NCBI GenBank assembly: GCA_036500765.1
Contig: DASYBM010000004.1
Coordinates: forward strand, 1-64,000
DNA from: Candidatus Sulfotelmatobacter sp.
GTDB taxonomy: Bacteria; Acidobacteriota; Terriglobia; Terriglobales; Acidobacteriaceae
Reading direction: 5' to 3'
Length of the DNA stretch: 64,000 nt
Below the pieces are notes generated by a model. That model had not been told where the DNA came from, searched no databases, and saw only the letters and a program-made list of their open reading frames with translations. How positions within the stretch are numbered: position 1 is the first letter of the stretch; every line of letters begins with the position of its first letter. This document shows, in pieces, positions 11,690-38,708 of this stretch. Both the position numbers and the translations under genes were made by a program.

Positions 11690-11736
11690 GATGCAAATTC
11701 CTTCATCTTGACACCCGAACGGCCCTCGGCCAGACT
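11690..11736 (+). promoter_or_regulatory. promoter with shared upstream element (Kelch B/C operon)
   Basis: ATGCAAATTCCTTCATC is followed directly by TTGACA (11708-11713), a 17-base spacer and CAGACT (11731-11736, weak -10). Predicted transcription starts near 11743, leaving a leader of about 110 bases before the ATG at 11852. The upstream element recurs at four other places in the window. Confidence 0.55.
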
Positions 11737-11851
11737 AAGACGCTTCGATTCGTGTGATTTTTTGAGCATGCGGCGATGCCTATCCCCTGAGGCATCTGAG
11801 CCTCCGTTCGCGGACACACGACACGTTCTTCAAGCCCAGGAGTGTCAACTC

Positions 11852-13984
11852 ATGAAGATGTGGAGAGCACTCGCGTCCGCGAGCTTCCCCCTGACACTCT
11901 GCATTCTTGTTTGTTTTCCCGATCCCATCGCAAAGGCACAGGTCTGGACGCAATATGGCCCGGCGGCGCGTTTCGCGCATACGGCTGTGTTCGATCCGGT
12001 CACGAAGAAGATGATTATCTTCGGCGGGCAGGACAGCACTACCGGCACGGATCTCAATGATGTCTGGCTGGTCGATACCGGCACTTCGAAATTTGTCACG
12101 TCCACCAGCCTGTCGCCGACTGGTTCCATCCCATCAGGCAGATTCGGGCATGTGTCCACCTACGACCCCAACACAAATCGCATGACAGTTTTTGGTGGGG
12201 GCACGGGACGGCCCGGTCCTTGCGTGAACGACGCCTGGATCCTCGACGCCGCCAACGGCCAGAATGGCACGTCTACGTGGATTCCGATTTCCGCAGCAGG
12301 CGCCCCGCCAGCTGCGCGTTTGCATCACACCGGTGTCTACGATCCAAATACCAACTCCCTGATCGTATTCGGCGGCAGTAATTGTTCGACCGGATACTTC
12401 AACGACGTGTGGGTATTGAGCGACGCGAACGGAGAAAGCGGCAGCTCGACCTGGATGCAGCTCGCGCCCTCGGGCACGCCTCCGGCGGCACGCCAGAGTG
12501 CCAGCGCCATTTACGATCCCGTAAACAATGTTATGACGGTGTACGGGGGGGACGCGGGTTCCGCGAATTTTGGAGATGTCTGGGTGCTCTCAAATGCCAA
12601 CGGCAGCGGCGGAACTCCGGTATGGACGCAACTATCGCCCACCGGAACATCGCCCGCTCCGCGCTCGGGTCAGACTGCGACTTATGACAGCACGCACGAT
12701 CGCATGACTATATTCGGGGGATTTCATTTGTCGCAGACGCGATCCGACACTTTTGTATTGACCTTCGCCAATGGCATCGGCGGCACGCCTGCGTGGTCAC
12801 AAATCGCGACCAAGGGTACTGCCCCGGCGGTTGGCTTTGCCAGTGCGGTGTACGACTCTTCGGTGAACGACCTGTATGTTTTTGCCGGATCGAGCAGCGA
12901 AGCCAAGCTGGCGGGTGACGATCACGCCTTTACGCTGAGCAGCGCCAATGGTCTGGGGACCAGTTCATGGACGCGCGGCGGGCCGCCCGCGCGCTATTCG
13001 CAATCGATGTTTTACGACGCTGTCGGCAACAGCCTGTTTGTAATGTTCGGGGAGCACGCGCAGACCAACACCAACTTTGACGACTACTGGCAGAGCAACG
13101 GCGTGAATGATTCCAGCAACATCAATTGGATCCCGATCAACGTGCAGGGCGCGCATCCGAAAGCGCGCTGGGGACAGTCGGCCGCTTATGACAGCGTGAA
13201 TAATAGGGCGATGGTATTCGGCGGAGCCACGGGATTTCCCGCGCCTTGCGTCAACGATTATTGGGTGATGACTACCGCCAACAATACAGGCGGCAAACCG
13301 GCGTGGGTTGCCCAGACTCCTACCGGAACGTTGCCGGGAGTGCGGATGCGCCACTCGGGCGTCTATGATCCGGCCACCAACAGGCTTATCGTCTTCGGTG
13401 GCTTCAATTGCCAGTCGACGTATTACAACGATGTGTGGGTCCTGAGCAATGCGAACGCTATTACGGGTACGCCATCATGGACGAAGCTGACGCCGACTGG
13501 AACGATCCCGAGCGCGCGGCAAAGCAGTTCCGCGATTTACAACTCATCGAGCAACACGCTGACGATTTATGGCGGAGATGCCGGCGCTGCGCCGTTTGGC
13601 GATATCTGGATACTCTTTCATGCCAACGGAACCGGGGGCACGCCGCAGTGGAAGCAAGCAAATCCTACCGGCGGCGCTCCGGTCGCACGCTCCGGCCACA
13701 CCGCGACCTACGATGTCACCAACGACCTGATGACGATTTACGGCGGATACGACGGCACCCATCTATTAAACGACACCTGGGTGCTTTCCGATGCGAACGG
13801 GAACGGAGTTCTTCCCAAGTGGACGCAAATTATCCCGCTCACTACGGCGCCGGCACGCCGCTTTGCCAGTGCGGTCTATGACCCGATCCACAATCAAATA
13901 AATATTTTCGGAGGCGTGTTCGAACTGCCTTCGCTTCCGGATGATCATCTTTACTCTCTAACGAATGCGAACGGACAACCATGA
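11852..13984 (+). CDS. Kelch-repeat secreted protein B
   Basis: The ATG at 11852 has AGGAG nine bases upstream and opens a Sec signal (ALASASFPLTLCILVCF..AKAQ); the longer open frame upstream has no protein character. The protein is 710 residues. Like protein A it is about twelve Kelch repeats in two halves: the block with TGRPGPCVNDAWIL in the first half returns as TGFPAPCVNDYWVM in the second. Four-residue CxNDxW cysteines and a later CST/CQST pair are conserved between halves and between paralogues. The stop overlaps the next start (ATGA at 13981-13984), so the next gene is translationally coupled. Role unknown; likely a surface or secreted binding protein. Confidence 0.85.
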   Translation: MKMWRALASASFPLTLCILVCFPDPIAKAQVWTQYGPAARFAHTAVFDPVTKKMIIFGGQDSTTGTDLNDVWLVDTGTSKFVTSTSLSPTGSIPSGRFGHVSTYDPNTNRMTVFGGGTGRPGPCVNDAWILDAANGQNGTSTWIPISAAGAPPAARLHHTGVYDPNTNSLIVFGGSNCSTGYFNDVWVLSDANGESGSSTWMQLAPSGTPPAARQSASAIYDPVNNVMTVYGGDAGSANFGDVWVLSNANGSGGTPVWTQLSPTGTSPAPRSGQTATYDSTHDRMTIFGGFHLSQTRSDTFVLTFANGIGGTPAWSQIATKGTAPAVGFASAVYDSSVNDLYVFAGSSSEAKLAGDDHAFTLSSANGLGTSSWTRGGPPARYSQSMFYDAVGNSLFVMFGEHAQTNTNFDDYWQSNGVNDSSNINWIPINVQGAHPKARWGQSAAYDSVNNRAMVFGGATGFPAPCVNDYWVMTTANNTGGKPAWVAQTPTGTLPGVRMRHSGVYDPATNRLIVFGGFNCQSTYYNDVWVLSNANAITGTPSWTKLTPTGTIPSARQSSSAIYNSSSNTLTIYGGDAGAAPFGDIWILFHANGTGGTPQWKQANPTGGAPVARSGHTATYDVTNDLMTIYGGYDGTHLLNDTWVLSDANGNGVLPKWTQIIPLTTAPARRFASAVYDPIHNQINIFGGVFELPSLPDDHLYSLTNANGQP

Positions 13985-16086
13985 AAAAATTTGGCTATCT
14001 CCTCCTGTTTATTTTTCTGGGCGTGGCTTCATTTCTGAACGCTCAGGTTTGGACGCTGTCCGGTCCGCCTTCCCGCCACTCGCAAACCGCGGTCTACGAC
14101 CAGACGACTGCCCAAATGATTATTTTCGGCGGACAGGAGACCTCGAGCAACACCGACCTGAACGACGTGTGGCTCGGTGTGACCTCTTCCAATCAGAACG
14201 AACGGTTCACCCAATTGCTGCCCACGGGCACGCCTCCCGTTGGGCGCTATGGTCAGGTGGCGACCTACGACCCCAACAGTAATCGTATGACGATGTTCGG
14301 AGGCGCGGAGGGCATGCCTGCGCCGTGCGCCAACGATTCCTGGATTCTCGATAACGCCAATGGCAGCGGGAAGGCCCAGTGGGGGGAGTTGTCCCCGTCG
14401 GGAACACTGCCTCTAGCGCGAGTTTATTCCTCTGCGGTCTATGATCCCGTCACGGATTCAATGATTGTATTCGGGGGCAATAATTGTTCGACGGGATACT
14501 TTGACGATGTGTGGGTTCTGAGCAGCGCCAACGGTGAAGGTGGCACGCCGCGATGGACCAAGCTGTCGCCCTCCGGCACACCTCCAGCGGCGCGCGAGAG
14601 CGCCAGCGCTATCTATGACTCGGTCAACAACATTATGACGATCTATGGTGGCGATGCCGGGGGAACCGGTTTCGGCGACGTGTGGGTTTTGTCGAATGCC
14701 AACGGAACGGGCGGGACGCCGGTATGGACACAATTGCATCCGGCCGGTACTGCTCCCGGCACTCGTACCGGGCAAACGGCCGTCTTCGATAGCTCAACCA
14801 ACCGGATGATCATTTTCGGTGGAGTGAACGCCGGCGTGACGCTCTCCGATACGTGGCTACTGAACTCGCCCAACGGGTTGGGCACTCCCAGTTGGTCGCA
14901 GCTGAGGACCGCGGGCACTGCGCCCAGTGTTGCATACCACAGCGCAGTGTATGACCCTGTGTTGAACAATATGTTCTCCTTCGCCGGCAGCAGCAGTGCC
15001 GACAAGCTCTCCACCAATTCGCATGCCTTTACCCTATTCGACGCCAATGGCGTAACCGGCGGTGGCGCCCGATGGATTCTCGGTGGACCAGCCGTGCGCT
15101 ACTCACAATCGGCGTTCTACGACACCGTGACCGACAGCGTATTCGTCTTCGGCGGCCAGCACGCCAAGACCAACAATGACTTTGCCGACTACTGGCAGGC
15201 TTCGGCGGTCACGGCTTCTTCCAACTTGAAGTGGACGGTTCTGCATCCGCCGGGAGGAGCACCGTCGGCACGTTTCGGTCACACTGGCCTGTTCGACAGT
15301 GGCAGTGACCGGATGATGGTTTTTGGCGGCGCCACCGGTTATCCTGCGCCGTGCGTGAATGACTATCACGTACTGGAATTTGCCAATACGAAGGGTGGCT
15401 CGCCGGTCTGGGTCAAAGAAAGCCCGACCGGCACGCTGCCGCCGGTTCGTTCCTTGCATTCCTCGGTGTACGATTCCGTTACCAATACCCTGATCGTCTT
15501 CGGGGGTTACGATTGCCACACCACCTACTACAACGACATCTGGATCCTGAAGGATGCTAACGCCGTGACCGGAACGCCGGCCTGGAGCAAACTGGCGCCC
15601 ACAGGCGCTCCTCCGGGCGTGCGGGAGAGCAGCAGCGCGGTCTACGATTCCACCACGAATACGCTCATTGTGTTCGGCGGAGATGCCGGCGGAAGCAGTC
15701 AGTTCGGCGACATCTGGCTGCTCTCGAACGCCAATGGCACGGGCGGGACTCCCGCGTGGTCGGTGCTTACGCCTTCCAACAAAGGGCCGGCCACGCGCTC
15801 CGGCCACAGCGCCACCTATGACAGCGTGCATAACGTCATGACGATTTATGGCGGTTACCACGGGGGGCAAATTCTCACCGATGTCTGGATTCTGGATGCA
15901 GCCAATGGGCACGCTGGCGCTGCCAGTTGGGTTCAGAGTCTTGTCGGGCAACCCCGCCGCTTCCAGAGTGCAATGTACGATACGACTCTGAACGAGATGA
16001 TTACCTATGGGGGACAAACCAGCACAAATCCTCTGAATCCCACATCGGATATTTGGATTTTGAGCGACGCCAACGGGTTGAAGTGA
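13981..16086 (+). CDS. Kelch-repeat secreted protein C
   Basis: This 701-residue protein overlaps the previous gene by four bases (ATGA), showing an operon with coupled translation. Signal peptide: MKKFGYLLLFIFLGVASFLNAQ. Residues 23-701 are Kelch repeats in the same two-half order as protein B, with the shared CANDSW/CVNDYH cysteine sites and the terminal DIWILSDANGLK. It is a tandem duplicate of B, and A is a third copy on the opposite strand. A and C share the ending ANGLK. No catalytic residues of galactose oxidase are evident. A terminator follows 60 bases after the stop. Confidence 0.85.
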   Translation: MKKFGYLLLFIFLGVASFLNAQVWTLSGPPSRHSQTAVYDQTTAQMIIFGGQETSSNTDLNDVWLGVTSSNQNERFTQLLPTGTPPVGRYGQVATYDPNSNRMTMFGGAEGMPAPCANDSWILDNANGSGKAQWGELSPSGTLPLARVYSSAVYDPVTDSMIVFGGNNCSTGYFDDVWVLSSANGEGGTPRWTKLSPSGTPPAARESASAIYDSVNNIMTIYGGDAGGTGFGDVWVLSNANGTGGTPVWTQLHPAGTAPGTRTGQTAVFDSSTNRMIIFGGVNAGVTLSDTWLLNSPNGLGTPSWSQLRTAGTAPSVAYHSAVYDPVLNNMFSFAGSSSADKLSTNSHAFTLFDANGVTGGGARWILGGPAVRYSQSAFYDTVTDSVFVFGGQHAKTNNDFADYWQASAVTASSNLKWTVLHPPGGAPSARFGHTGLFDSGSDRMMVFGGATGYPAPCVNDYHVLEFANTKGGSPVWVKESPTGTLPPVRSLHSSVYDSVTNTLIVFGGYDCHTTYYNDIWILKDANAVTGTPAWSKLAPTGAPPGVRESSSAVYDSTTNTLIVFGGDAGGSSQFGDIWLLSNANGTGGTPAWSVLTPSNKGPATRSGHSATYDSVHNVMTIYGGYHGGQILTDVWILDAANGHAGAASWVQSLVGQPRRFQSAMYDTTLNEMITYGGQTSTNPLNPTSDIWILSDANGLK

Positions 16087-16147
16087 GCGTGATCGCGGTT
16101 GATTGAGAAGGAATAAGTTACAGAACTAAAGAACTAGGAAACGAAAG

Positions 16148-16178
16148 AGCGGCCACCTTCTGGCCGCTTCTTTGTTTC
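16148..16178 (+). terminator. intrinsic terminator after Kelch operon
   Basis: A perfect 8-bp stem AGCGGCCA/TGGCCGCT (16148-16155 with 16161-16168) closes a five-base loop and is followed by TCTTTGTTTC. Confidence 0.8.
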
Positions 16179-16204
16179 GTAAAATCAATGTTTCGTAAAA
16201 TCAA

Positions 16205-16331
16205 CTCTTTGCGTTCTTTGCGGCGTTCTCTTCGCGCACTTTGCGGTTTCAGGTTTTGGCCGGACTATTGGCGACATCAACACCCTTAACCGCAAAGGGA
16301 CGCAAAGAAATGCCGCAAAGAACGCAAAGAG
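16205..16331. repeat. inverted repeat of CTTTGCG-type units
   Basis: CTCTTTGCGTTCTTTGCGGC at 16205-16224 and its exact reverse complement at 16312-16331 flank about 87 bases. Further related units (CACTTTGCGG, CCGCAAAGG, CGCAAAG) lie between them. The unit looks like a dispersed non-coding repeat rather than a gene; it lies between convergent genes. Short open frames here have no protein character. Confidence 0.7.
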
Positions 16332-16381
16332 CCCAAGGACACAACTCGAACGGTTTTCTAGTCTTGGCGGACATCAAATCC

Positions 16382-17929: not shown

Positions 17930-18259
17930 CGTTATATTTCCTCGATTTGTTTTGATCAACTACCTGCAAACCCGAGCGCTGTGCGATCATAACCCCGGGG
18001 CCGGCAAAAAGTTGCGACTCTTTCCCACGGAAACGACCTAAAATGTTTGATTGCAGCCGATTTCTTTTGCGGTGAAGAGGGGAATCACGCGATTCCAGCG
18101 CGGGTCGGCCGCACGATAGTCGGAGCATGATCTCGATTATTGATGAGGTCGATCGTCGCTAGTCGATCGACAATTTGGTCCTCTGACCGTCGACCGGTCG
18201 AATTCACCAACAGAGCCCTCCCGGGAATTTTAGCTATCTTCCCCAAACCAAAGGCTCAG
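17930..18259. other. intergenic stretch without a recognised gene
   Basis: This stretch lies between the leftward lipoprotein gene and the promoter of the rightward FG-GAP gene. Near 18140-18200 it is rich in TCGATCG-type words with several short inverted matches. No open frame with protein character is seen. Confidence 0.5.
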
Positions 18260-18306
18260 TATGCAATTTCCTTCATCTTGACAGTAAAGTTGAACCCGGC
18301 GACACT
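18260..18306 (+). promoter_or_regulatory. promoter with shared upstream element (FG-GAP gene)
   Basis: TATGCAATTTCCTTCATC precedes TTGACA at 18278-18283. With a 17-base spacer the -10 is GACACT (18301-18306), which is weak. The upstream block differs from the copy at 11690 at only two or three positions. Predicted leader to the GTG at 18407 is about 95 bases. Confidence 0.5.
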
Positions 18307-18406
18307 ACCCTCTCGACTCGGTTTCGTTCCCCTCCCCGCCCTTCCGAGCGATCTTTAGGGCTCCGCCTCAATATCGTCAAAAAAGAAGCAATAGAGGGAG
18401 ACACTC

Positions 18407-20803
18407 GTGACATCCTGCCAACAGTCCGCCGCTAGCCTGCCTGAGAAAAGCATCTCACACCGCCTCAACATTTATCTGAAGCTAACCATGATGGTGATGT
18501 TGGTCCTGGCGGTGGGATCGTCCGCAGCGCTGGCCGGCAATGCTCTTCCGCTGATCAACGCTCCGCTGGTGCCCGCGCAGAAAACGCCGGGAGCGGCCGC
18601 ATTCACGCTGACCGTGAACGGCACCGGGTTTGTTTCGGGCGCGGTGGTGGAGTGGAACGGCAATGCCCGCACCACTACGTTTGTATCGAGCGAAAAGCTG
18701 ACTGCTTCTATTCTGGCTACCGATGTGGCCACGACCGGAACCGCCGCGGTAACCGTCTCGAATCCTGCGCCCGGCGGCGGCCTGTCGAATGTGGCGTATT
18801 TCGCCGTTGTCAAAGCCGGCTTCACCGCAGCCTACGGCAAGCTGGATTACGCCACCGACACTACTCCTCAGGCGGTTGCGGCCGGAGATTTTAACGGCGA
18901 CGGCAAAATGGACCTGGCCGTGGCCACCGGCAACAACAGCGTGTCCATGTTGCTGGGTTCCGGCACAGGCACCTTTCCCACCCATGTGGAATATCCGGTT
19001 CCGGGACATCCCATCGCGATCGCCACCGGCGATTTCAACGGCGACGGCAAAGTTGACGTCGCGACCGTAGACGAATTTCAGAGCGAAATCACCGTGCTTC
19101 TGGGCAACGGCGACGGCACCCTCCAAACCCATGTGGAGTATCCCACCGGCACTCATCCTGTGGCGCTGGCTACGGCGGATGTGAACGGCGACGGCCATCT
19201 GGACATCATCGTCTGCGATCTGAACGACAACAAGGTTGCGGTTCTGCTGGGCAATGGCGATGGCACCTTCAAAGCGCACGTGGATTACGCCACGGGCAAT
19301 GGTCCGAGCAGCGTGGCGATTGGCGATTTCAACGACGATGGCAAACTTGACCTGGCGGTAGCCAACAATACCGACGCGACCGTCTCCATCCTTTTGGGTA
19401 ATGGCGATGGAACTTTCCAGGGACCGATTCCGTTCCCGACCGCGGTCGGCGCTAACAGCGTGGCCATCGGCGATTTCAGTGGCGACGGCAAACTGGATGT
19501 CGCTGTCGGCACTTCGAACAAGCAAGTCTCCATCCTGCTGGGCAATGGCGATGGAACCTTGCAGAATCATAAAGAGTATGCGATTGGCGCCAATGCGGTC
19601 ATGGTAGCCGCGGCGGACATGAACGCCGACGGCAAGTTGGACCTCGTCACCGCCAACTATAACGACAATACCGTGTCGCTTCTGATTGGCAACGGCGACG
19701 GCACCTTCAAAGGCGAGTCAGTTTATCCCACCAATTCCGGGCCGAACTCACTCGCAATCGCGGACTTCGACGGCAGCGGCAAGCTCGAAATCGCAGCCAC
19801 CAATCTCAATGGGAACGTGGTTTCGGCGCTGACGGCCAACGTCATCTCGCTGACTCCCAGCGTGCTCGCCTACGGAACGCAGACTTCCGGCATTAAGAGC
19901 TCGGCTAAGGTAGTCACGCTAAAGAACGGCGGCTCGACGGCCTACACCACGATCACGCCGACTTGGGTGGGAGCCTACCCGACCGACTTCTCGCAAACCA
20001 CCACTTGCGGCGCAACGGTTGCCGCCGGCGCAACGTGCACCTACTCGGTGTACTTCGATCCCACGGCGTCGGAAGCGGCGAATGCGCAAATGCAGTTTAA
20101 GTCGTCGAACGGCAGCATCATCGCCGTCCAGGGGGTCGGACAGGGCAATATCCCAATCTACCTGGCGCCCCGAACCATAACCTTCGCGGGATATCAGTTG
20201 GTTGGCACCAAGAGCGCCGGAAGGGTCGATACGTTCACCAATAAGAGCGGCGTGAACATTTACTTCACAAACATCGATTTGGAAGGGCAAAACCAGAGCG
20301 ATTTCAGTTTCACCAGCACCTGTGCGGGTGGCGGACCGCCGTTTAACTACACGGTGCCCCTGCTCCCGAGCGCCAGTTGTACTTCGACCATCTACTACAG
20401 CCCGACCGCCTCCGAGCAGGACCACGTGACGCAGGTCTACTACGGCAACCTGACGCTCGGGAAGCAAGGCTTGCTGATCAGCGGGACTGGGACCGTGGTC
20501 AGCATTACCCCGACCTCGCTAAATTTCGGCGACCAGAAGGTGGGAACGACGAGTGCGGCGAAAACGATCACCTTCAAGAACACGGGCTCAACTCCTCTGA
20601 ACATCAGCAGCGTCAGTTGGTCCGGTCAGAACGACTTCGCCCAGACTAACACTTGTCAGCCAAGCGTTCCGGCCAACTCGTCATGCACGTTCAGCGTCAC
20701 GTTCAAGCCAACAGTAACGGGAGCCTTGAGCGCGACCTTGCTAATCGGCGACCCGGACCTTACAGGGCCGCAGTCGGTTACGGTGACGGGTACAGGCGAC
20801 TAG
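18407..20803 (+). CDS. secreted FG-GAP/VCBS-repeat protein with ASH (choice-of-anchor D) domains
   Basis: The start is GTG at 18407 with AGAGGGAG six bases upstream; 798 residues. A Sec signal spans about residues 25-44 (MMVMLVLAVGSSAALAG). Residues 45-135 form an IPT-like domain (LTVNGTGFVSGAVVEWNG). Residues of about 140-475 are seven or eight FG-GAP repeats with calcium-binding DxNxDGxxD loops (GDFNGDGKMDLAVA, LLGNGDGTF), expected to fold as a beta-propeller. Residues of about 480-798 are three ASH/HYDIN-type domains (LAYGTQTSG, FGDQKVGTTSAAKTITFKNTG, CTFSVTFKPT). It is probably a surface or extracellular adhesion/binding protein; the function is unknown. Confidence 0.85.
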   Translation: MTSCQQSAASLPEKSISHRLNIYLKLTMMVMLVLAVGSSAALAGNALPLINAPLVPAQKTPGAAAFTLTVNGTGFVSGAVVEWNGNARTTTFVSSEKLTASILATDVATTGTAAVTVSNPAPGGGLSNVAYFAVVKAGFTAAYGKLDYATDTTPQAVAAGDFNGDGKMDLAVATGNNSVSMLLGSGTGTFPTHVEYPVPGHPIAIATGDFNGDGKVDVATVDEFQSEITVLLGNGDGTLQTHVEYPTGTHPVALATADVNGDGHLDIIVCDLNDNKVAVLLGNGDGTFKAHVDYATGNGPSSVAIGDFNDDGKLDLAVANNTDATVSILLGNGDGTFQGPIPFPTAVGANSVAIGDFSGDGKLDVAVGTSNKQVSILLGNGDGTLQNHKEYAIGANAVMVAAADMNADGKLDLVTANYNDNTVSLLIGNGDGTFKGESVYPTNSGPNSLAIADFDGSGKLEIAATNLNGNVVSALTANVISLTPSVLAYGTQTSGIKSSAKVVTLKNGGSTAYTTITPTWVGAYPTDFSQTTTCGATVAAGATCTYSVYFDPTASEAANAQMQFKSSNGSIIAVQGVGQGNIPIYLAPRTITFAGYQLVGTKSAGRVDTFTNKSGVNIYFTNIDLEGQNQSDFSFTSTCAGGGPPFNYTVPLLPSASCTSTIYYSPTASEQDHVTQVYYGNLTLGKQGLLISGTGTVVSITPTSLNFGDQKVGTTSAAKTITFKNTGSTPLNISSVSWSGQNDFAQTNTCQPSVPANSSCTFSVTFKPTVTGALSATLLIGDPDLTGPQSVTVTGTGD

Positions 20804-20824
20804 TTGCAGCACGAGCCCTAAATT

Positions 20825-20860
20825 CGGGGCGGATGCCGAAAGCTTTCGGCATCCGCCCCG
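20825..20860. terminator. 36-base perfect palindrome between convergent genes
   Basis: CGGGGCGGATGCCGAAAG is followed with no loop by its exact reverse complement. It lies 21 bases after the FG-GAP stop and 56 bases from the stop of the opposing gene, so it fits a two-way terminator, although a T-run is lacking on both sides. Confidence 0.6.
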
Positions 20861-20916
20861 TCGTTCTAGACTGAAACTCGTAGGCCAATCAAGGCGAGAC
20901 GGCGCGCCGCGCTACG

Positions 20917-26051: not shown

Positions 26052-28520
26052 CTAATCCACTGTTTCTGTGAATGCGACAGGAGTCAGTGTCGAGTACGAG
26101 GCGTTGATCGTAACGGTTCCCGTGTGGGACGGTGTGATGTAGGTGACCGTTGCCTGCCCTAAGTTATTCGTAACCGGCATAGTGGTAGAGAAGGTTCCGC
26201 CAGCGCCATTGTCGGTGAAGGTTACGGTAAGCCCAGAGATGCCATTTCCGTATCGATCGGTGACGGAAACGATCAGGGATTTCGGTAATTTATTATTCAC
26301 GTGCGTGGATTGATTGTTGCCCTGCACGATGGTAAGCGCGGTGGCCGGTCCCGCAGTCGATTGCTCGGAGACCTTAACGTTGACCGATCCGACGGACGCG
26401 GTCACGCTGAGCGACTTGGCCACCGTCGGTAGCGTATAAGACGTGCTTGCTTGCCCATTCGAACCGGTAATAGCGGGATTTGGCGAGAATGTGCCACCCA
26501 CGCCGTCGCTGAAGCTGACCGATGCTCCCGGCACCAGATTTCCCACTGCATCTTTGGCTTTGACGACAATGGGCTGCGGCAGGGTGGTTCCGACGGTTCC
26601 AATTTGTTTCGAGCCGGAAACGGTCGACATCGCCGCCACGGGGCCGACTACGTCTTGTTCGGTAAACGTTGCCGACGCGTAGCCTGGACTCGACACGGTA
26701 ATGGTGATGGTTTGTGCCGTATGCGGCAAGGTGTATGTGCTCGAAGCCATGCCGTTGCTGTCGGTGACAGCGGTCGGATTGCTGAACGTGCCGCCCTTGC
26801 TGCCATCGCTGAAGGTCACGGTTACTCCCGGGACGGGGCTGCCGGTATAGGGATTCTTGGTCACAACCGTGATTGCGGTCGGCAGGGTTGTGCCTGCATA
26901 CCCGGTCTGGTTGTTGCCGGCACTGGGATTGATGTCGGGGAACAAGCCATAGGCGACCAACTGGGTTACCGTCCCGGCGTACACTTTGCCGTTGGCGACC
27001 GTAGGGGTTGCGTAGTGTTCAACGGTTCCCAGCGAGTCCCGGCCACCCGCGGCCATTCCCGAATCGTAGAGGAGATAAAGATGCACAGCGTCGTAGGCGG
27101 ACAGTAACGTGGTTCCCCCGGCATTCCGCGCCAACCACACAATGCCATTGCTGCTGCCGTTGGCTGAAATCGAGGGCAGGCCGATGGTCGTCAGCTTGCT
27201 AACGCTTTGCGCCACCGGAGTGGTTGAGAGCAGGCCGTTGGTCAGAGAATAAGCCTTTAAGTAGTCGAGGTGACCTAAGAAGTAGACTGTGTTATTCCAA
27301 TAGAGAGGATTTCCATAATATTGTCCGAGGGCAGTCGGAAAATATTGAACCGCCTGGTCATTGTTAGCTGCGTTATAGCCGCCCAGAGCGTCCCGGTTGA
27401 GCAGAAAGATATCTCCCATTTTGTCGCTGGTGACCAGCAAGTCTGGGGTCGAACTGTTGCTTTGGGTCGGAAGAATAGTGACACCGGCAGAGCCCATGTC
27501 GTAGTCGTTCGCGGCCATGTACGCCTGGTTGTAGGGAGTAAAGTAGCTCTCGACGGTGAATGCATTTCCGCTCGACGATAGCTCGAGCACGCTGTCGCCG
27601 ATGTCGGGAAAGCCTGTGCTGTAATTGAATAGTCCGTTCCCCGTCGAAAGGAAAACATTTCCAGTGCTGTCCGCCGCAGGACCGACCGATCCTTGCCAGA
27701 TCGAGCTGCCATAGCTTTGATCGGGCTGGGTAGTCATCACTGCCTCCTGCTGCAAGGTGGTAGCGTTATAGGCAAACAACCATCCGCGGGCGGTGAGGTC
27801 GCACCCGTTCGAACCGAATCCCAGATAGATCGTGCCATTCGATAGCAGCAGGCCTGGCCGCTGGAACTGGTGCAGAATGATCAGGCTCAGATTGCCGATC
27901 TTTCCGGTGATTGAAACCGGGCCACCGAACTTCTCCAGCCCGGTGGTGATATCCAAAGCATGCAACCTGTAATAATAGGTCGTGACGCCCGAAGTCGTTT
28001 CCGCCGTTTTAGCCGTCACATAGATCGTTCCGGTCGTGGGATCAATCACAGGAGTGCTGAGGATTCCCACTTCGCTGATCGCCGTCTCGCTGCACCCTTG
28101 CACCGAAATCGGCACCGTCGTAATTCCTGCCGCCGGATTGATGAAGCTGGCTTGCCAGAGTTGCACGCCAGTGTCGGCGTCGATCGCGTACAGGCTGTCA
28201 TGCTGCGTTGCCACAAAAACTACGTTATGCGTCGCGCCGTTAATCGACAGCGCCGACATATATAAGGGCTGAGCCGAGACGTACCCATCGACGTTGAAAG
28301 CAAACAATTTTCCAAACTGCGTCGAATTCACATTCGCATTCGTCAGTAAAGTCTCGCCGATGTTCTGACCAGTGCGCGAGTTGTCATTCTTGTTGGTCAG
28401 CACATTCACTTGCGCAACCGCCTGCGGCACGACTGCCAAGCTGGACGCAAACGCCAACGCCGCGACGAGAATCCGGCCGCTCAACTTTGGAAGGCGGGCT
28501 GGAACGAAGAAAGAATGCAT
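26052..28520 (-). CDS. secreted PQQ-type beta-propeller protein with three Ig-like (Big_1) repeats
   Basis: I chose the ATG at 28520 because AAAGGGG lies just upstream; an ATG five codons earlier lacks one. The protein (822 residues) has a Sec signal ending AVVPQAVAQ. Residues of about 30-520 resemble outer-membrane PQQ-like propeller proteins (NVVFVATQHDSLYAIDADTGVQLWQ, GTIYVTAKT, PDLLVTSDKMGDIFLLNRD). Residues of about 540-822 are three Ig-like repeats of roughly 90 residues. Each has a T(L)P..I.V..K....G.PVPG..VTFSD...GGTFS core and a TYTLP or TYITP strand. This looks like a surface-exposed binding or scaffold protein. Its promoter carries the shared upstream element. Confidence 0.8.
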   Translation of the reverse strand: MHSFFVPARLPKLSGRILVAALAFASSLAVVPQAVAQVNVLTNKNDNSRTGQNIGETLLTNANVNSTQFGKLFAFNVDGYVSAQPLYMSALSINGATHNVVFVATQHDSLYAIDADTGVQLWQASFINPAAGITTVPISVQGCSETAISEVGILSTPVIDPTTGTIYVTAKTAETTSGVTTYYYRLHALDITTGLEKFGGPVSITGKIGNLSLIILHQFQRPGLLLSNGTIYLGFGSNGCDLTARGWLFAYNATTLQQEAVMTTQPDQSYGSSIWQGSVGPAADSTGNVFLSTGNGLFNYSTGFPDIGDSVLELSSSGNAFTVESYFTPYNQAYMAANDYDMGSAGVTILPTQSNSSTPDLLVTSDKMGDIFLLNRDALGGYNAANNDQAVQYFPTALGQYYGNPLYWNNTVYFLGHLDYLKAYSLTNGLLSTTPVAQSVSKLTTIGLPSISANGSSNGIVWLARNAGGTTLLSAYDAVHLYLLYDSGMAAGGRDSLGTVEHYATPTVANGKVYAGTVTQLVAYGLFPDINPSAGNNQTGYAGTTLPTAITVVTKNPYTGSPVPGVTVTFSDGSKGGTFSNPTAVTDSNGMASSTYTLPHTAQTITITVSSPGYASATFTEQDVVGPVAAMSTVSGSKQIGTVGTTLPQPIVVKAKDAVGNLVPGASVSFSDGVGGTFSPNPAITGSNGQASTSYTLPTVAKSLSVTASVGSVNVKVSEQSTAGPATALTIVQGNNQSTHVNNKLPKSLIVSVTDRYGNGISGLTVTFTDNGAGGTFSTTMPVTNNLGQATVTYITPSHTGTVTINASYSTLTPVAFTETVD

Positions 28521-28746
28521 GCGAACCCCTTTCATGACAGCTCAGACCCGCGTCCTTTCCCCGATTTCGAGCAAAAGACGATAGCGGGAATCGGACGAAT
28601 CCCGTGGGATCAATCACCGGTTACTACACTCAACTTAGCGTTCACGATCAAGGGGGAAGGTTCGTTCAAAACGCTGGATGAAGCTGACTGCCGGGACGAA
28701 GCGGGGGATTTGGCATTCAAAAAACGCCAGTCAGATGCTTATCGTC

Positions 28747-28795
28747 ATTCTTCGTGCCCCGGCTTACCTTGTCAATGATGAAAGTTCTTGCACAC
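28747..28795 (-). promoter_or_regulatory. promoter with shared upstream element (PQQ/Ig gene)
   Basis: Read on the minus strand: GTGCAAGAACTTTCATCA, then TTGACA (28775-28770), a 17-base spacer and AAGAAT (28752-28747). The block from GTGCAAG to the -35 is the same, except for one base, as the one at 38663 on the plus strand, and the -10 is identical there. Predicted leader is about 220 bases. Confidence 0.65.
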
Positions 28796-28924
28796 CGAAA
28801 CGCCCTCCGGGCACGGGTTTGGGGACTTTTGACTCCTAGTCTAGCGGTGCAACTCATGCTAGCCTCGTCATAACCTTCCTTCCCAAGCGCAACTCACAAC
28901 CGGCAGAAAACCGAGAAGTCTCTT

Positions 28925-30424: not shown

Positions 30425-30439
30425 TCTCCAGACGGTTGT

Positions 30440-30502
30440 TATCCTGAACGCAGCCTTTCTTGAGGCGGAGCGAAGAGCCTGCCCTGGGCGAAGTCGAAGG
30501 GA
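30440..30502 (+). repeat. dispersed 63-base repeat, copy 1
   Basis: This block lies between two convergent genes and matches 40869-40931 at about 53 of 63 positions by hand alignment. The core GGAGCGAAGAGCCTGCCCTG is identical in both. It is non-coding and may fold weakly; no transposase is nearby. Confidence 0.75.
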
Positions 30503-30559
30503 CCTCAGGCTTAGCGAACCCGCGCGTGCGCCAGACCGCATTATGTCTGTTCTGGCTGT

Positions 30560-31936: not shown

Positions 31937-32120
31937 AGGACACCTAATTCTGAGAGGTTAAAAACTAAGGAACACAAGCGGAGAAAGGATGTTGCGCTGA
32001 TTCGATGGTGCCATTCTCGGGGATAGGCTGTCAATTCAGAGAGGAAACTACTTCTAGCTTGACCTCACGTGCGAGGAAATCGCACCGTGCTCGTTCGATT
32101 TACTTTGCGGTCTTGCTTGC

Positions 32121-33962: not shown

Positions 33963-34123
33963 AAAGAAATGTTGGGGGGAGGAGACGGGAAGTGTACTCC
34001 GTGGTCATCATGTTGTCACGCTCAGTCCGGGCTGTCAAACAGGAACGCGCGTTGTCGGTCGCTTCTTGTGGAAAGGCGTCCGCCCCTTCAGTTTCAAGCT
34101 TGCCCTCAAGAATGAGGCAAAAT
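33963..34123. other. start of divergent intergenic region before halogenase operon
   Basis: The gap from 33963 to 34371 (409 bases) separates the leftward hydrolase from the rightward halogenase operon. This first part should hold the hydrolase promoter, but I see no convincing -35/-10 pair. No gene is seen. Confidence 0.4.
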
Positions 34124-34170
34124 GTGCAAGTTTTTTCATGCTTGGCGAATCGCCCGAATTTTGATCTAAT
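34124..34170 (+). promoter_or_regulatory. promoter with shared upstream element (halogenase operon)
   Basis: GTGCAAGTTTTTTCATGC precedes TTGGCG (34142-34147), a 17-base spacer and TCTAAT (34165-34170), the best -10 of the group. Predicted leader to the ATG at 34372 is about 195 bases; I did not recognise a riboswitch in it. Confidence 0.65.
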
Positions 34171-34371
34171 AGGGCTACACAGCGCGACTGTAAAGGTAGC
34201 GTTCCCCCTCTAAATTTTCTCGCCTCTCCCGCACTGCAATCGAATGGGTGTTGTTTCCTTGAGCACGAATGGGAAGGCAACGGTATCTTTAACAGAATCC
34301 GCTAGCGCGACAAATCAATTCCGACACATGATCGTATTCCGAACAAACATCCTGGGGAGAAGAAAGCAGAT

Positions 34372-35736
34372 ATGAACTCATCCGCACCTGATTTTGAGGT
34401 AGGAATCATTGGAGGCGGCCCTGCAGGTTCCAGCATGGCGGCTTACCTGGCCAAATCCGGTATTAACTGCGTGGTGTTTGAGCGCGAGCTAATGCCCCGT
34501 CCCCACGTGGGAGAGTCGCTGGTCCCGTCCTCGACGCGCGTGTTTAAGGACCTCGACTTCCTGCCCAAGATGGAGGAGGCGAAATTTCCCCACAAGTTCG
34601 GCGCGGCCTGGACTGCGGCTTCGGACGCGAAGGTCTACAACATGGATTTCGGCGGCGTCTCGGCCGATTGCCATGTGGACATTCGCTTCGAAGAGCGCAA
34701 TCAGCCCGGCGTGAATCAGAACTACACCTATCACGTGGACCGCAGCAAGTTCGACCTGATGCTGCTCCAGCATGCGAACCAGTTTGGCGCCAAGGTGTAC
34801 GAAGGCATCGGCGTGAATCGCGTGGATTTCAGCGATCCCAACTGCGCCGCCGTCAAATACACGATGGGCAAGAAAGAAATGAGCACGACTTGCCGCATCG
34901 TCGTCGACGCCAGCGGGCGTAAAACTCTGGTCGGCAATCAGATGAAGTGGCGTATTCAGGACGACCATTTCGACCAGTACGCCATTCACACCTGGTTCAA
35001 CGGTTACGACCGCCGCTGCATGGCTTCCAACAAGCAGACCCAGGGTGATTTTATTTTCATCCACTTCCTTCCCATCACCAATACATGGGTCTGGCAGATT
35101 CCCATCAGCGAAACCGTTACGAGCATCGGCGTGGTCACGCAGAAAAAGAATTTTGCCAAGAGCAAAGAATCGCGCGAGAAGTTTTTCTGGGAATGCATCC
35201 AGAGCCGTCCTGAGTTGTATGAAGGCCTGAAGGCGCAGGGCTCGGAGCAGATGGGCCCGATGAAGGATGAAGGCGACTACAGCTACGCCATGAAGCAGCT
35301 CGCGGGCGACCGGCTGGTGCTGGTCGGCGACGCGGGACGTTTCGTCGATCCCATCTTCTCGACCGGCGTGAGCATCGCGTTGAATTGCTCGCGATTTGCC
35401 CACAAAGACATCATCGGCGCGCTCGAGACCGGCAACTTCAGCCGCGAGGCCTTCGCCACTTACGAAGCAACACTCCGTCGCGGCACGAAGAATTGGTACA
35501 ACTTCATCAGCGTGTACTACCGGCTTAACGTGCTGTTCACGGCTTTCGTGCAGGATCCGCGTTACCGCCTGGATGTGCTCAAGCTTCTGCAAGGCGACGT
35601 TTACGAGGATGCCGAGCCGCCAGTTCTGACCCGCATGCGGAATATCGTGCAGCAGGTCGAGAAGGATCCCAATCACGCGCTGCACGGTTTCCTCGGCGAC
35701 CTCACCGCGGATGCGTTCGTGGAAGCCTCGGCATAG
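34372..35736 (+). CDS. flavin-dependent halogenase-like oxidoreductase, copy 1
   Basis: This 454-residue protein has a GGGGAGAAG ribosome binding site. Residues 10-20 hold the FAD-binding GxGxxG motif (VGIIGGGPAGS). PHVGESLVPSS at about 45-54 is typical of the halogenase/geranylgeranyl-reductase group. Lysines 71 and 75 (EEAKFPHKFG) are candidates for the catalytic lysine. W239-x-W241-x-I-P (WVWQIP) is the signature used for flavin-dependent halogenases. LVGDAGRFVDPIFSTG near residue 320 is the second FAD motif. It lacks a signal peptide and should act in the cytoplasm with reduced flavin from a separate reductase, which is not in the window. A close paralogue and an antiporter follow. The substrate is unknown, and a non-halogenating monooxygenase or reductase remains possible. 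Confidence 0.75.
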   Translation: MNSSAPDFEVGIIGGGPAGSSMAAYLAKSGINCVVFERELMPRPHVGESLVPSSTRVFKDLDFLPKMEEAKFPHKFGAAWTAASDAKVYNMDFGGVSADCHVDIRFEERNQPGVNQNYTYHVDRSKFDLMLLQHANQFGAKVYEGIGVNRVDFSDPNCAAVKYTMGKKEMSTTCRIVVDASGRKTLVGNQMKWRIQDDHFDQYAIHTWFNGYDRRCMASNKQTQGDFIFIHFLPITNTWVWQIPISETVTSIGVVTQKKNFAKSKESREKFFWECIQSRPELYEGLKAQGSEQMGPMKDEGDYSYAMKQLAGDRLVLVGDAGRFVDPIFSTGVSIALNCSRFAHKDIIGALETGNFSREAFATYEATLRRGTKNWYNFISVYYRLNVLFTAFVQDPRYRLDVLKLLQGDVYEDAEPPVLTRMRNIVQQVEKDPNHALHGFLGDLTADAFVEASA

Positions 35737-35788
35737 GCGAAATCTATAATCGGAACCAGAACAAAGATTTTGGGAGAAAGCAGCGAAT

Positions 35789-37141
35789 ATGAATCATTCA
35801 GTCCCTGATTTTGAGGTAGGCATTATCGGCGGTGGGCCCGCAGGATCCAGCATGGCATGCTATCTGGCCAAGGCCGGCGTGAAGTGTGTGGTGTTCGAGC
35901 GCGAATTGTTTCCTCGGCCGCACGTTGGCGAGTCGCTCGTTCCGTCCTCGACTCGCGTGTTCAAGGATCTCGACTTCCTGCCCAAAATGGAGGAAGCCAA
36001 GTTTCCGCACAAGTTCGGTGCGGTCTGGACGACCAACGACGAGAATCCCGGCTACGTTCACGATCTCGAGGGTTTAACGCCGGATTACAACGTCGACATT
36101 CGCTTCGAAGAGCGCAAACAGGAAGGGATGGAGGACCGCAACTATACCTACCACGTGGATCGCGGCAAGTTCGACCTGATGCTGTTGAAGCACGCGCAGG
36201 AACTCGGCGCGACGGTGTATGACGGCGTGAAAGTGGCGCGCGTGGACTTCAGCCCCGAGTATCCTGACGTTTACTTCACCATCGGCCCGAAGGAGATGAG
36301 CGTCAACTGCAAAATGGTTGTCGATTGCAGCGGACGCCAGACTTTCCTTGGCAATCAGCTCAAGCTGAAAATCAAAGACACCGTGTTCGACCAGTACGCG
36401 ATTCACTCGTGGTTCGACGGCTACGACCGCAAGGTGTTCGCCAAGCGCGACACGAACCTGGATTACATCTACATCCACTTCCTGCCGATTTCCAACACCT
36501 GGATCTGGCAGATTCCAATCACCGACTCCGTTACCAGCCTGGGCGTGGTCACGCAGAAAAAGAATTTCGCCAAGTCGAAAGAAGATCGCGAGAAGTTCTT
36601 CTGGGAGACCGTCGGCAGCCGGCCGCTGATCGCCGAGACGCTGCGCAAGTCGGATCGCATTCGTCCCTTCAAGGAAGAAGGCGATTACAGCTACGCTATG
36701 AAGCAGCTTGCCGGCGATCGCTTCATGCTGGTGGGCGATGCCGGCCGCTTCGTCGATCCCATCTTCTCGACCGGCGTGAGTATCGCGCTCAACAGTTCGC
36801 GCTTCGCGCACAAGGACATTCTCACGGCCCTGGAGAAGAACGATTTCTCGCGCGCGGCCTTCACCGACTATGAAACCAAGCTGCGCCGCGGAACCAAGAA
36901 TTGGTACGACTTCATCTCGGTCTACTACCGACTGAACGTGCTGTTCACCTACTTCATCAGCGACCACAATTACCGCCTCGACGTGCTGAAGCTTCTTCAG
37001 GGAGATGTGTACGACGAAGAAGCTCCCGAAGTGCTCACCAAGATGAAGGCGATGGTGGCAAAAGTGGAGCAGAACGAAAAGCATCCGTGGCACAAACTGC
37101 TGGGAGATTTGACCTCGGACGCATTCCGGCCCACGGTCTAG
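35789..37141 (+). CDS. flavin-dependent halogenase-like oxidoreductase, copy 2
   Basis: This 450-residue protein starts 52 bases after copy 1 with GGGAGAAAG upstream. It is strongly similar to copy 1 along its whole length: GGGPAGS, PHVGESLVPSSTRVFKDLDF, EEAKFPHKFGAVW, the W238-x-W240-x-I-P signature (WIWQIP), VTQKKNFAKSK and LVGDAGRFVDPIFSTGVSIAL. Differences cluster at residues 80-115 (TTNDENPGYVHDLEGL against a shorter block in copy 1) and in the C-terminal 40 residues, which could alter substrate choice. The intergenic regions before both genes are also alike (GGGAGAAAGCAG), so the duplication included the leader. Same caution on chemistry as for copy 1. Confidence 0.75.
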   Translation: MNHSVPDFEVGIIGGGPAGSSMACYLAKAGVKCVVFERELFPRPHVGESLVPSSTRVFKDLDFLPKMEEAKFPHKFGAVWTTNDENPGYVHDLEGLTPDYNVDIRFEERKQEGMEDRNYTYHVDRGKFDLMLLKHAQELGATVYDGVKVARVDFSPEYPDVYFTIGPKEMSVNCKMVVDCSGRQTFLGNQLKLKIKDTVFDQYAIHSWFDGYDRKVFAKRDTNLDYIYIHFLPISNTWIWQIPITDSVTSLGVVTQKKNFAKSKEDREKFFWETVGSRPLIAETLRKSDRIRPFKEEGDYSYAMKQLAGDRFMLVGDAGRFVDPIFSTGVSIALNSSRFAHKDILTALEKNDFSRAAFTDYETKLRRGTKNWYDFISVYYRLNVLFTYFISDHNYRLDVLKLLQGDVYDEEAPEVLTKMKAMVAKVEQNEKHPWHKLLGDLTSDAFRPTV

Positions 37142-37157
37142 TCGATTCGAAGGCACG

Positions 37158-38633
37158 ATGTCGCACAAGAGCCGCAATTTCGTTGTGGCGTACGCTCTGC
37201 TTGTGGGCTTGCCTTTGCTCGGACTCGGAGCCGTCCTGAGAACTGGACGTACCACCCAGGCTCCGACTGCGATCGGCGGCGTCTTCAAACTGGAAAGCGG
37301 CGTCGGGCACGTTCTGATGCCCGACCTGTTCATCCTTATCCTCCAGATTGCAGTCGTGCTATCAGTCTGCCGGATTGTGGGCGCAATCTTTCAGAAGATC
37401 GGCCAGCCCCGCGTTGTGGGCGAGATGTTTGCGGGCATCATGCTGGGCCCATCCTTGCTGGGTTGGTTGTCGCCGCATTCTTCTTCTTATCTGTTTCCGC
37501 CCTCCAGCCTCGGCTTCCTGAACGCCTTAAGCCAGATCGGCGTGCTGGTTTTCATGTTCGTTGTAGGTCTCGGAATCAATCCCAGAGAGCTGAAAAAGCA
37601 GGGTCACGCGGCGGTGCTGACCAGCCACGTCGGTATCAGCGCTCCCTTTGTCCTAGCGTCGCTGCTCTCGCTATATCTGTATCCCCGGCTTTCGATCGTG
37701 AATAATAACGACAGCGTAACCTTCACCAGCTTTACGTTGTTTATGGGCGCTGCGATGAGCATTACCGCGTTCCCCGTGCTGGCGCGAATTCTTCAGGAAC
37801 GCAATCTGCTGGGCAGCCGCCTGGGGACTGTCGCGATTGGCTGCGCAGCGGTCGGCGATGCGACGGGATGGTGCATTCTTGCCTACATCGTAGTTCTGAT
37901 CCGTGCAGCACATTCGACAGGCTCCATCTGGGTAACTATCGGCGGCATTGCTGTCTTCGGCTTGATCATGATCTATGGCGTCCGCCCGCTCTTGCGCGGC
38001 TGCGAGCGCGTTTACAAATCGACCGGCGCATTGAGCGAGAACTTGATCGCGTTGATGCTCCTGCTGGTTCTGATCTCGGCGCTCTGCACTGAGTTGCTTG
38101 GGATTCACGCGCTTTTCGGCGCATTTCTGATGGGCGCCATTATGCCCAAGCAGCGCCATTTCGTTCGGTATGTGCTGGATCGTTTTGAAACCATCACCGT
38201 CACTCTGCTGCTGCCTTTGTTTTTCGCCTTCACCGGACTCCGTACCAACATCGGGTTGGTCAAAGGTTCGGAGATGTGGATGTACTGCGGCCTGATCATT
38301 CTAGTGGCGACGGCGGGAAAACTTGGGGGCACTACGTTGGCCGCTTGGTTCACTGGAATCCCTCTGCGGGAAGCGGCTGGCCTGGGCACGCTGATGAACA
38401 CGCGCGGCCTCATGGAGTTGGTGATCCTGAACATCGGCCTCGATATCGGAGTCATCTCTCCGGCCCTGTTCTCCATGATGGTGATCATGGCATTGGTTAC
38501 GACCTTCATGACGACGCCGGTTCTAGGCTTGATTTGCCCGAAGGAGTTTCTGGCGATAGAGCCTGAAAAAGTGGTCGCACAATCTTCGCCAATGCCAATC
38601 GATGTGCCCGAAGGCCAGAGCCAGGTAGCCTGA
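37158..38633 (+). CDS. CPA2-type cation:proton antiporter
   Basis: This 491-residue membrane protein lies 16 bases after the second halogenase-like gene, so it belongs to the same transcript. It has about 13 hydrophobic segments. Conserved blocks of the Na+/H+ exchanger (Kef/CPA2) family are present: GQPRVVGEMFAGIMLGPSLLG, FMFVVGLGIN, AMSITAFPVLARIL, GCAAVGDATGW, FGAFLMGAIMP and GLGTLMNTRGLMEL. It ends without a TrkA-N or other soluble regulatory domain. It should exchange K+ or Na+ for protons across the inner membrane. The link with the two flavoenzymes is unexplained; supply of halide, pH balance or product resistance are guesses. Confidence 0.85.
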   Translation: MSHKSRNFVVAYALLVGLPLLGLGAVLRTGRTTQAPTAIGGVFKLESGVGHVLMPDLFILILQIAVVLSVCRIVGAIFQKIGQPRVVGEMFAGIMLGPSLLGWLSPHSSSYLFPPSSLGFLNALSQIGVLVFMFVVGLGINPRELKKQGHAAVLTSHVGISAPFVLASLLSLYLYPRLSIVNNNDSVTFTSFTLFMGAAMSITAFPVLARILQERNLLGSRLGTVAIGCAAVGDATGWCILAYIVVLIRAAHSTGSIWVTIGGIAVFGLIMIYGVRPLLRGCERVYKSTGALSENLIALMLLLVLISALCTELLGIHALFGAFLMGAIMPKQRHFVRYVLDRFETITVTLLLPLFFAFTGLRTNIGLVKGSEMWMYCGLIILVATAGKLGGTTLAAWFTGIPLREAAGLGTLMNTRGLMELVILNIGLDIGVISPALFSMMVIMALVTTFMTTPVLGLICPKEFLAIEPEKVVAQSSPMPIDVPEGQSQVA

Positions 38634-38660
38634 TCTTGCTGCCTCATCGATCGCTTGCCC

Positions 38661-38708
38661 TGTGCAAGAACTTTCATCCTTGACACTCCAGTCACTCCAG
38701 CGAAGAAT
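38661..38708 (+). promoter_or_regulatory. promoter with shared upstream element (SGNH gene)
   Basis: TGTGCAAGAACTTTCATCC is followed by TTGACA (38680-38685), a 17-base spacer and AAGAAT (38703-38708). Predicted leader is about 180 bases. It nearly equals the minus-strand promoter at 28747-28795. Confidence 0.65.

Follow-up and report, generated by a model that had tools for sequence, protein, structure and literature searches.

A 64,000-nucleotide stretch of a Candidatus Sulfotelmatobacter genome (phylum Acidobacteriota; contig DASYBM010000004.1), referred to below as the window, contains five intergenic copies of a short element, TGCAA-N5-TTCAT (hereafter the box), which lie at the upstream edge of the -35 hexamers of promoters serving mainly genes for exported repeat proteins. 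Judging from its sequence properties, the box is probably the site of one dimeric activator acting before sigma70-type promoters, and the genes behind it would form a regulon of exported repeat proteins. Sequence comparison across the window, the genome to which it belongs (G000; 5.04 Mb in 17 contigs), the genus and the family establishes the element itself, how it is spaced, how rare it is, that close relatives conserve it and which genes it targets. The initial annotation of this DNA had already proposed that a shared element defines a regulon, and the rarity of the box, a fixed -10 that was not part of the selection, conservation and signal-peptide enrichment all agree with that proposal.

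Geometry of the box and promoter type

Read from the letters of the window, TGCAA starts at 11692(+), 18262(+), 28792(-), 34125(+) and 38663(+), so that all five annotated sites are directly visible. Their internal spacing had been described as six or seven bases between TGCAA and TTCAT, followed by zero or one base after TTCAT(C/G); the actual distance is 5 bases at 5/5 sites, and TTCAT is separated from the -35 by 1 base at 11692 and 18262 (one-base class) and by 2 bases at 28792, 34125 and 38663 (two-base class). A TTGACA-like -35 with a 17-base spacer had also been claimed: the spacer is 17 bp at all five sites and the hexamer is TTGACA at four, the halogenase site having TTGGCG at 34142. 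The hexamers exactly 17 bp past the -35 are, in window order, CAGACT, GACACT, AAGAAT, TCTAAT and AAGAAT. The annotated near-identity of two of the copies (28792 and 38663) holds, with 19/20 bases identical from TGCAA through TTG and AAGAAT as the -10 in both.

When 90 sites were aligned on TTGAC (after removal of near-duplicates and of five loci, L012, L014, L018, L041 and L048, that were taken to be chance or coding matches), the strongest signal outside the letters fixed by the pattern lay in mid-box and in the -10 columns, with A in 67%, A in 67% and T in 71% at columns 24, 26 and 28, corresponding to a -10 of nAnAAT exactly 17 bp from TTGACA. A set of 20 sites taken from three other genera, of which at least three sites are already among the 90, gave A 17/20, A 14/20 and T 17/20 in the same columns. 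Few sites have T as the first base of the -10 (13% of the 90 and 4/20 of those in other genera). The box is separable from the -35, since the two-base variant shifts the box by one base and leaves the -35/-10 spacing at 17; if gaps of 0-3 are permitted, almost all matches in the genus genomes that end in TTGAC show a gap of either 1 or 2. The -35 and -10 elements at 17 bp in all five window sites and the column peaks in the 90 and 20 sites are those of a sigma70-type promoter. An alternative or extracytoplasmic function (ECF) sigma factor would be recognized by -35 and -10 elements unlike those of sigma70 and by the lack of a separable upstream site; the sites have TTGACA-17-nAnAAT and a separable near-dyad.

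Among relaxed matches, the box takes the form of a quasi-dyad, ATGCAAR-NN-YT(T/G)CAT, as revealed by relaxed copies with G at -5 (TGCAAGTTCTTGCATC in G044, TGCAAGATCTTGCATC in G026). Of 73 matches from other genera (two of 75 were left out), 33 have G and 39 have T at base -5; the -14/-5 pair is complementary in 32/73, and the outer positions of both halves fit a 7-2-7 arrangement. Measured from the -10, the dyad centre is 32 bp upstream at one-base-class sites (about -44.5) and 33 bp upstream at two-base-class sites. At 11692, the dyad sits between two -35 hexamers, TTGACG leading to the Kelch gene at 9400-11610 and TTGACA to the Kelch gene at 11852-13984, each with a -10 at 17 bp. In 5 species the box and the plus-strand -10 are conserved, as is the -10 region on the minus strand for the most part, and the relatives retain the palindrome and a reverse -10 (TATTCT or TATGCT). 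Bidirectional promoters were considered as a general rule and rejected, a reverse TTG-like -35 being found at 13/90 sites against a null mean of 6.3 and maximum of 13; accordingly, only the Kelch locus and G030:C11, which is probably a second divergent promoter sharing one dyad, are taken as likely cases.

Rarity and distribution

A loose pattern finds 11 matches in the 5.04 Mb of G000, 5 of them in a 27-kb stretch of the window, and 0 when reversed. Scans of G000 allowing <=3 mismatches gave 14 one-base-class and 4 two-base-class matches (reversed controls 0), which together with the halogenase site make 19 sites. About 17 of these are credible, C13:48352 and C15:80056 (3 mismatches each, the latter before a proB-like gene) being probably chance matches. 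The refuting observation named in the initial annotation, a motif as frequent inside genes as upstream, was looked for at the 19 sites: by our judgement, 0/19 lie inside a convincing gene, and of the five open reading frames (ORFs) that cover a site, two look like over-extended starts and three like spurious opposite-strand ORFs. Fixed-gap scans with 3 mismatches confined to the window showed a modest excess only, with 25 matches versus a shuffle mean of 15.7 (2/100 shuffles had as many) and 24 versus 15.5 (1/100). Chance matching as an explanation was rejected on the controls for G000, the genus and the family.

The strict pattern occurs in 113 stretches among 84,980 species genomes; by record title, 76 are from Acidobacteriota, including 12 from Candidatus Sulfotelmatobacter, and the remaining 37, judged non-Acidobacteriota, were left out. 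Within the genus, the strict pattern is present in 29/45 genomes, and the relaxed pattern (<=2 mismatches) yields 225 matches versus 16 for the reversed control, in 37/45 genomes, with a maximum of 22 in one relative (G014); the 225 include a few of a different string (see below), and individual matches cited here from this search and from the genus searches for RR1 (a candidate regulator discussed below) and LacI are among the matches listed. Across the family, the box was found in 33/200 genomes and 21/79 genera (109 matches versus 6 in the control) and in none of the other 167/200; single genomes of genera g77, g97, g65, g50, g73 and g14 have 4 to 12 sites each. The number of credible sites in G000 and the 22 relaxed matches in G014 do not fit the label "small" originally given to the regulon.

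The different string, GGCAAG-N9-CTTGCC, recurs in seven genomes besides G000, with close variants in two more (among the matches listed), and is represented in G000 by C15:80056 (L178), before the proB-like gene; it is probably a different element that merely resembles the box.

Conservation and turnover

Each window promoter was aligned with three or four relatives picked because they bear the box, so that letters fixed by the pattern are invariant by construction and the free letters provide the fair figures. The downstream genes of the relatives were checked against window proteins, and the one failing row, L248 of G014, which matched no window protein tested, was removed and the ASH promoter recounted without it. 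Free box letters are invariant at 25/33 positions (76%; 6/6 Kelch, 5/6 FG-GAP, 5/7 PQQ, 3/7 halogenase and 6/7 ASH) and -10 letters at 27/30 (90%; 6/6, 5/6, 6/6, 4/6 and 6/6 in the same order), and spacer columns at 29/85 (34%; 4, 6, 2, 10 and 7 of 17). Of the 100 upstream columns, 46, 15, 33, 29 and 24 are invariant, and the downstream figures are 25, 49, 17, 52 and 34%.

For a test free of this selection, homologues were taken from loci fetched for RR1, not for the box. Three of 15 Kelch, FG-GAP, PQQ and halogenase homologues have the box at 1 mismatch (reversed control 6), namely the homologues of the Kelch gene at 9400 in G014 and G027 and the FG-GAP gene in G014. Set against the retention in close relatives, this fraction indicates that the box persists between close relatives and has come and gone over larger distances; by these sequence comparisons, regulon membership turns over between species.

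Target genes

The first genes downstream of the boxes mostly encode exported proteins, including GloVer-like, FG-GAP, Kelch, IPT/TIG, HAF-like, PQQ and ASH proteins. Signal peptides were predicted for 43/50 box-headed units versus 70/148 other unit starts in the same loci (crude rule, Fisher p 1e-6), bearing out the enrichment before exported-protein genes that had been suggested as a check; the rule is home-made and also passes the proB-like protein. Most of the 7/50 failures look like over-extended starts, and one is the halogenase. In G000, 16/19 sites head signal-peptide genes in our reading, as do 15/20 by eye in other genera. Pfam confirmed the Kelch, FG-GAP/ASH, PQQ/Ig and halogenase labels of the window targets (Table 1); the gene after 38663, annotated as an SGNH protein and scanned as 38887-40815, encodes ASH-type domains, with no SGNH domain at E<=0.001.

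The halogenase/antiporter operon is the clear non-exported exception in the window. Its annotated link to the box was retained in four related species found by the box (the window's and three others) and was absent before the halogenase homologues of three other genomes. Halogenase-halogenase-Na/H exchanger operons also adjoin RR1 paralogues in L223 (G003), L225 (G007) and L221 (G040), on both sides in G003, and the halogenase promoters of these three loci carry a different string ending in TCTC before the -35.

Table 1. Promoters, target genes and candidate regulator in the window.
Feature	Coordinates	Strand	Details
Divergent Kelch promoter	11661..11736	both	box 11692-11706 inside palindrome TCAAGATGCAAATTCCTTCATCTTGA
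Kelch promoter, minus side	11689-11661	-	-35 TTGACG 11689-11684; -10 TATTCT 11666-11661
Kelch promoter, plus side	11708-11736	+	-35 TTGACA 11708-11713; -10 CAGACT 11731-11736
FG-GAP promoter	18262..18306	+	box 18262-18276; -35 TTGACA 18278-18283; 17-bp spacer; -10 GACACT 18301-18306
PQQ promoter	28747..28792	-	box 28792-28778; -35 TTGACA 28775-28770; -10 AAGAAT 28752-28747
Halogenase promoter	34125..34170	+	box 34125-34139; -35 TTGGCG 34142-34147; -10 TCTAAT 34165-34170
ASH promoter	38663..38708	+	box 38663-38677; -35 TTGACA 38680-38685; -10 AAGAAT 38703-38708
Displaced box, di-haem oxidoreductase promoter region	2041..2100	+	box TGCAAAATTCTTCAC 2041-2055; -35 TTGACA 2072-2077; -10-like TACCGT 2095-2100
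Exported Kelch protein	9400..11610	-	Pfam; signal peptide; target of divergent promoter
Exported Kelch protein	11852..13984	+	Pfam; target; another Kelch gene next, 13981-16086
Exported FG-GAP/choice-of-anchor protein	18407..20803	+	Pfam; target
Exported PQQ/Big_1 protein	26052..28535	-	Pfam; target
Presumed halogenase/antiporter operon	34372..38633	+	two FAD-dependent halogenase-like genes (34372-35736, 35789-37141); Na+/H+ exchanger 37158-38633
Exported ASH/choice-of-anchor D protein	38893..40815	+	Pfam; target
RR1, candidate regulator	855..1742	-	orphan NarL/LuxR-family response regulator, pseudo-receiver

Many sites also have a run of C within the predicted 5' leader, 36-106 bases downstream of the first base of the -35. 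In that leader stretch, CCCCC occurs at 32/86 sites versus 5/86 in the upstream stretch (GGGGG, 2/86), and a leader C-run is found in 21/50 box units versus 30/148 other unit starts; those of the window lie at 34204-34208(+), 28707-28703(-), 38761-38765(+) and 18329-18338(+). The run is possibly an RNA-level element. An Rfam scan of the window returned tRNA only.

RR1 as candidate regulator

RR1 is the sole recognizable transcription factor among 30 window ORFs scanned with Pfam, a set that covers the ORFs beyond 55 kb in part. It combines a GerE helix-turn-helix (HTH) domain (PF00196, E 6.6e-18) with a receiver domain (PF00072, E 1.2e-5, 25.9 bits versus a cut-off of 30.2), and matches DevR over both domains at E 2.4e-15. 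The phospho-acceptor Asp is missing: the position aligned with that of DevR is Ser in RR1 and in 23/23 rows covering it, a count that includes the copy in the window. The protein has a repetitive C-terminal tail (window 970-1080, NHASADHASANHASHNHGSANHGSANHG), which Pfam scores as pentapeptide repeat, and some of the orthologous matches read through a stop codon.

Matches to RR1 at E<1e-63, a cut-off chosen after seeing the data, occur in 8/8 genomes with >=5 boxes, 1/6 with 2-4 and 1/61 with none, in a case-control set of our own choosing. Genus members with RR1 (37 genomes) also carry more boxes than those lacking it (8 genomes; p 0.003), and in at least 8/37 (G000, G004, G007, G014, G019, G027, G030 and G040) the contig that encodes RR1 has a strict box no more than about 31 kb away. 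Of 24 RR1-like genes listed, 23 had usable upstream DNA; a box was found upstream in G000, G004, G014, G017, G019 and G027, representing one orthologous site, and in G011, G039 and G044, with other sequences. Box-like strings by RR1 genes in G015, G035, G037 and G042, and one in G011, were not counted, as they look like coding sequence. In other genera, box-like strings accompany the RR1-like genes of G128, G131 and G152 but not those of G057, G105, G120, G132, G160 and G187. Protein clustering of the neighbourhoods of 76 named Acidobacteriota loci and the G000 loci (45 largest clusters inspected) produced one transcription-factor group, LuxR/NarL, with 4 loci, two of which are apparently orthologous.

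The promoter region of the di-haem oxidoreductase genes, which diverge from RR1, has a displaced box at 2041, the centre of which lies 47 bp before the -10 instead of the usual 32, that is, 15 bp further upstream. A similar displaced box is found at the same position in five relatives (G004, G014, G017, G019 and G027), and one is present at 2/4 di-haem enzyme gene homologues in the RR1-fetched loci (TGCAAGAATCTTCAC, TGCAAGATTCTTCAC). The promoter also has a second partial dyad, GAG...CTC, abutting its -35.

Mechanism and alternative explanations

On the proposed mechanism, one dimeric activator would bind the quasi-dyad abutting the -35 of an ordinary sigma70-type promoter and, centred at about -44.5, would touch RNA polymerase at the -35, compensating for a poor -10; the corresponding promoter design would be TTGACA, 17 bp and a weak nAnAAT without the usual first T. 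The regulon would be dispersed, comprising exported Kelch, FG-GAP, PQQ, IPT/TIG, GloVer-like and ASH proteins and, in this lineage, the halogenase/antiporter operon, and at the Kelch pair one dyad would drive two divergent promoters. A dimer at that position together with a poor -10 suggests activation; we infer activation rather than repression, and a binding protein of the NarL class.

A LacI-, MarR- or TetR-like repressor whose operator would extend over the upstream end of the -35, keeping the promoters silent until a ligand arrives, appears unlikely. The 5-4-5 dyad TGCAA-N4-TTGCA is like LacI-family operators in form, and LacI proteins are found in 44/45 genus genomes, but the scarcity of the first T makes for a weak -10, which is expected of an activated and not of a repressed promoter, the box keeps one fixed distance from the -10 (the one-base variant aside), and LacI number does not track boxes (3 LacI and 22 boxes in G014; 12 LacI and 0 boxes in G022). 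LacI was thus dropped as a regulator lead, its gene counts not discriminating. The initial annotation had offered either an activator or a special sigma factor at the -35, and of these the activator is favoured. A sigma factor reading TGCAA...TTCAT-TTGAC as an extended -35 would suit a box that abuts the -35 and an unusual -10, but is very unlikely given the sigma70-like TTGACA-17-nAnAAT, the one-base shift of the box relative to the -35 in one site class, the near-dyad form and the two divergent promoters served at the Kelch pair. The about 22 bp that are nearly exact between non-homologous genes, and the turnover of membership between species, might also reflect a mobile or recombining repeat that spread copies of one promoter through the genome; this we regard as highly improbable, since similarity stops at the box, -35 and -10, neither flanks nor 17-bp spacers being shared, and since in several species the copies keep their place before orthologous genes while the spacers diverge.

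Within the activator explanation, identification of the binding protein with RR1 or its family is putative and, on the sequence evidence, falls somewhat short of an even chance; that the regulator is another dimeric HTH protein encoded elsewhere is an evenly balanced proposition. The latter is favoured by the recognition helix of RR1, by the distinct element upstream of many RR1 genes, by G043 (all three detailed below) and by the four proteins over the HTH_Crp_2 cut-off encoded in G000, the one genome in which these were counted; against it stand the co-occurrence and linkage of RR1 and the box, the boxes near RR1 genes and the NarL-type geometry of the box. The annotated suggestion that the orphan regulator at 855-1742 binds the element is accordingly upheld in part, as regards co-occurrence and linkage, and contradicted in part by the same three observations. 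In a further, rather improbable variant, a pseudo-receiver NarL-type master activator would work without phosphorylation, possibly as a heterodimer with a paralogue, and run the secreted beta-propeller and repeat proteins. The TGCAA left and TTCAT or TGCAT right halves would then distinguish hetero- from homodimer targets, by analogy with BldM-WhiI, and the two partners would be encoded by the pairs of RR1-like genes that several relatives have on a single contig, separated by 2-6 kb.

Several observations weigh against the activator explanation or the role of RR1 in it. The dyad is imperfect, right halves in the genus being mostly TTCAT, and its innermost and central pairs display no paired covariation among the 73 out-of-genus matches. 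At two of the five promoters, the sequence further downstream is well conserved too (49% and 52%). In the RR1-fetched loci, 12/15 homologues are at chance level, with 5 or more mismatches; these include the PQQ genes of G007 and G040, the halogenases of G003, G007 and G040 and two Kelch genes of G027, although some (e.g., second halogenase genes) may be non-first operon genes. The RR1 recognition helix hardly varies even in genomes with few or no boxes (0 in G042, 1 in G037), which weakens the RR1 claim, and the matches listed include no close RR1 for G043, a genome with 6 boxes. Many RR1-family genes carry TGGCACT-NN-AGTGCCA (TGGCACT-NN-AGTGCCATTTAC), or one half of it, upstream, and box-free halogenase operons stand beside RR1 paralogues. 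In an rpoB tree, box-rich genomes fall mostly outside one large box-free clade, so that shared ancestry explains part of the co-occurrence of RR1 and the box; the tree covers 26/30 genomes (G000 and G187 had no match and two partial matches were left out), and its row G123 is a bad long branch. Finally, 552 kb of named neighbourhoods (up to 8 kb each) contain 2 strong RR1-like genes only.

The TGGCACT element is whole in RR1 loci L221, L223, L225, L257, L258 and L260, and one half lies at window 1949-1962; it is found about 105-270 bp before the starts of RR1-family genes and is a possible autoregulatory site.

Significance and comparison with known systems

No description of such a regulon, box or palindrome appeared among the entries listed by searches of open-licence PMC papers on promoter and regulon topics in Sulfotelmatobacter and Acidobacteria, and this gene-control circuit seems to have gone unnoticed before. 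The group consists mostly of uncultured soil bacteria, and most of the named Acidobacteriota records in this analysis come from metagenome assemblies. A box that a pattern search can find marks functionally obscure secreted repeat proteins as co-regulated, links them with a halogenase/antiporter operon, perhaps also with genes for di-haem enzymes, and provides a concrete DNA bait for finding the regulator and its signal. If confirmed, it would also supply a promoter design for the group (box, TTGACA, 17 bp, weak -10).

Three known systems resemble the one described here. The ogt promoter of E. coli is of the sigma70 type. One 7-2-7 site centred at -44.5, with 32 bp between its centre and the -10, is reported to be enough for NarL-dependent induction (PMC9314961). 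Promoters of the ogt1052 type are like the box in this position of the centre and probably in having two 7-base half sites 2 bp apart, the dyad of the box being partial; the present system differs in its half-site, ATGCAAR, its many, mostly exported targets and a candidate regulator without the phospho-acceptor Asp. BldM of Streptomyces is an orphan atypical response regulator which is reported to bind a 16-bp palindrome with two central free bases (TCACcCgnncGgGTGA) and to control a dispersed Group I regulon (PMC4125116). The likeness comprises a palindrome, partial in the box, with two free central bases, a dispersed regulon and, if RR1 is the binding protein, an atypical response regulator, whereas half-site and phylum are unrelated, binding is here predicted and the targets are exported repeat proteins. 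DevR/DosR is the closest solved relative of RR1 by sequence, both combining a receiver with a GerE-type HTH domain; DevR has Asp at the phosphorylation site, whereas RR1 has Ser and a long repetitive C-terminal tail.

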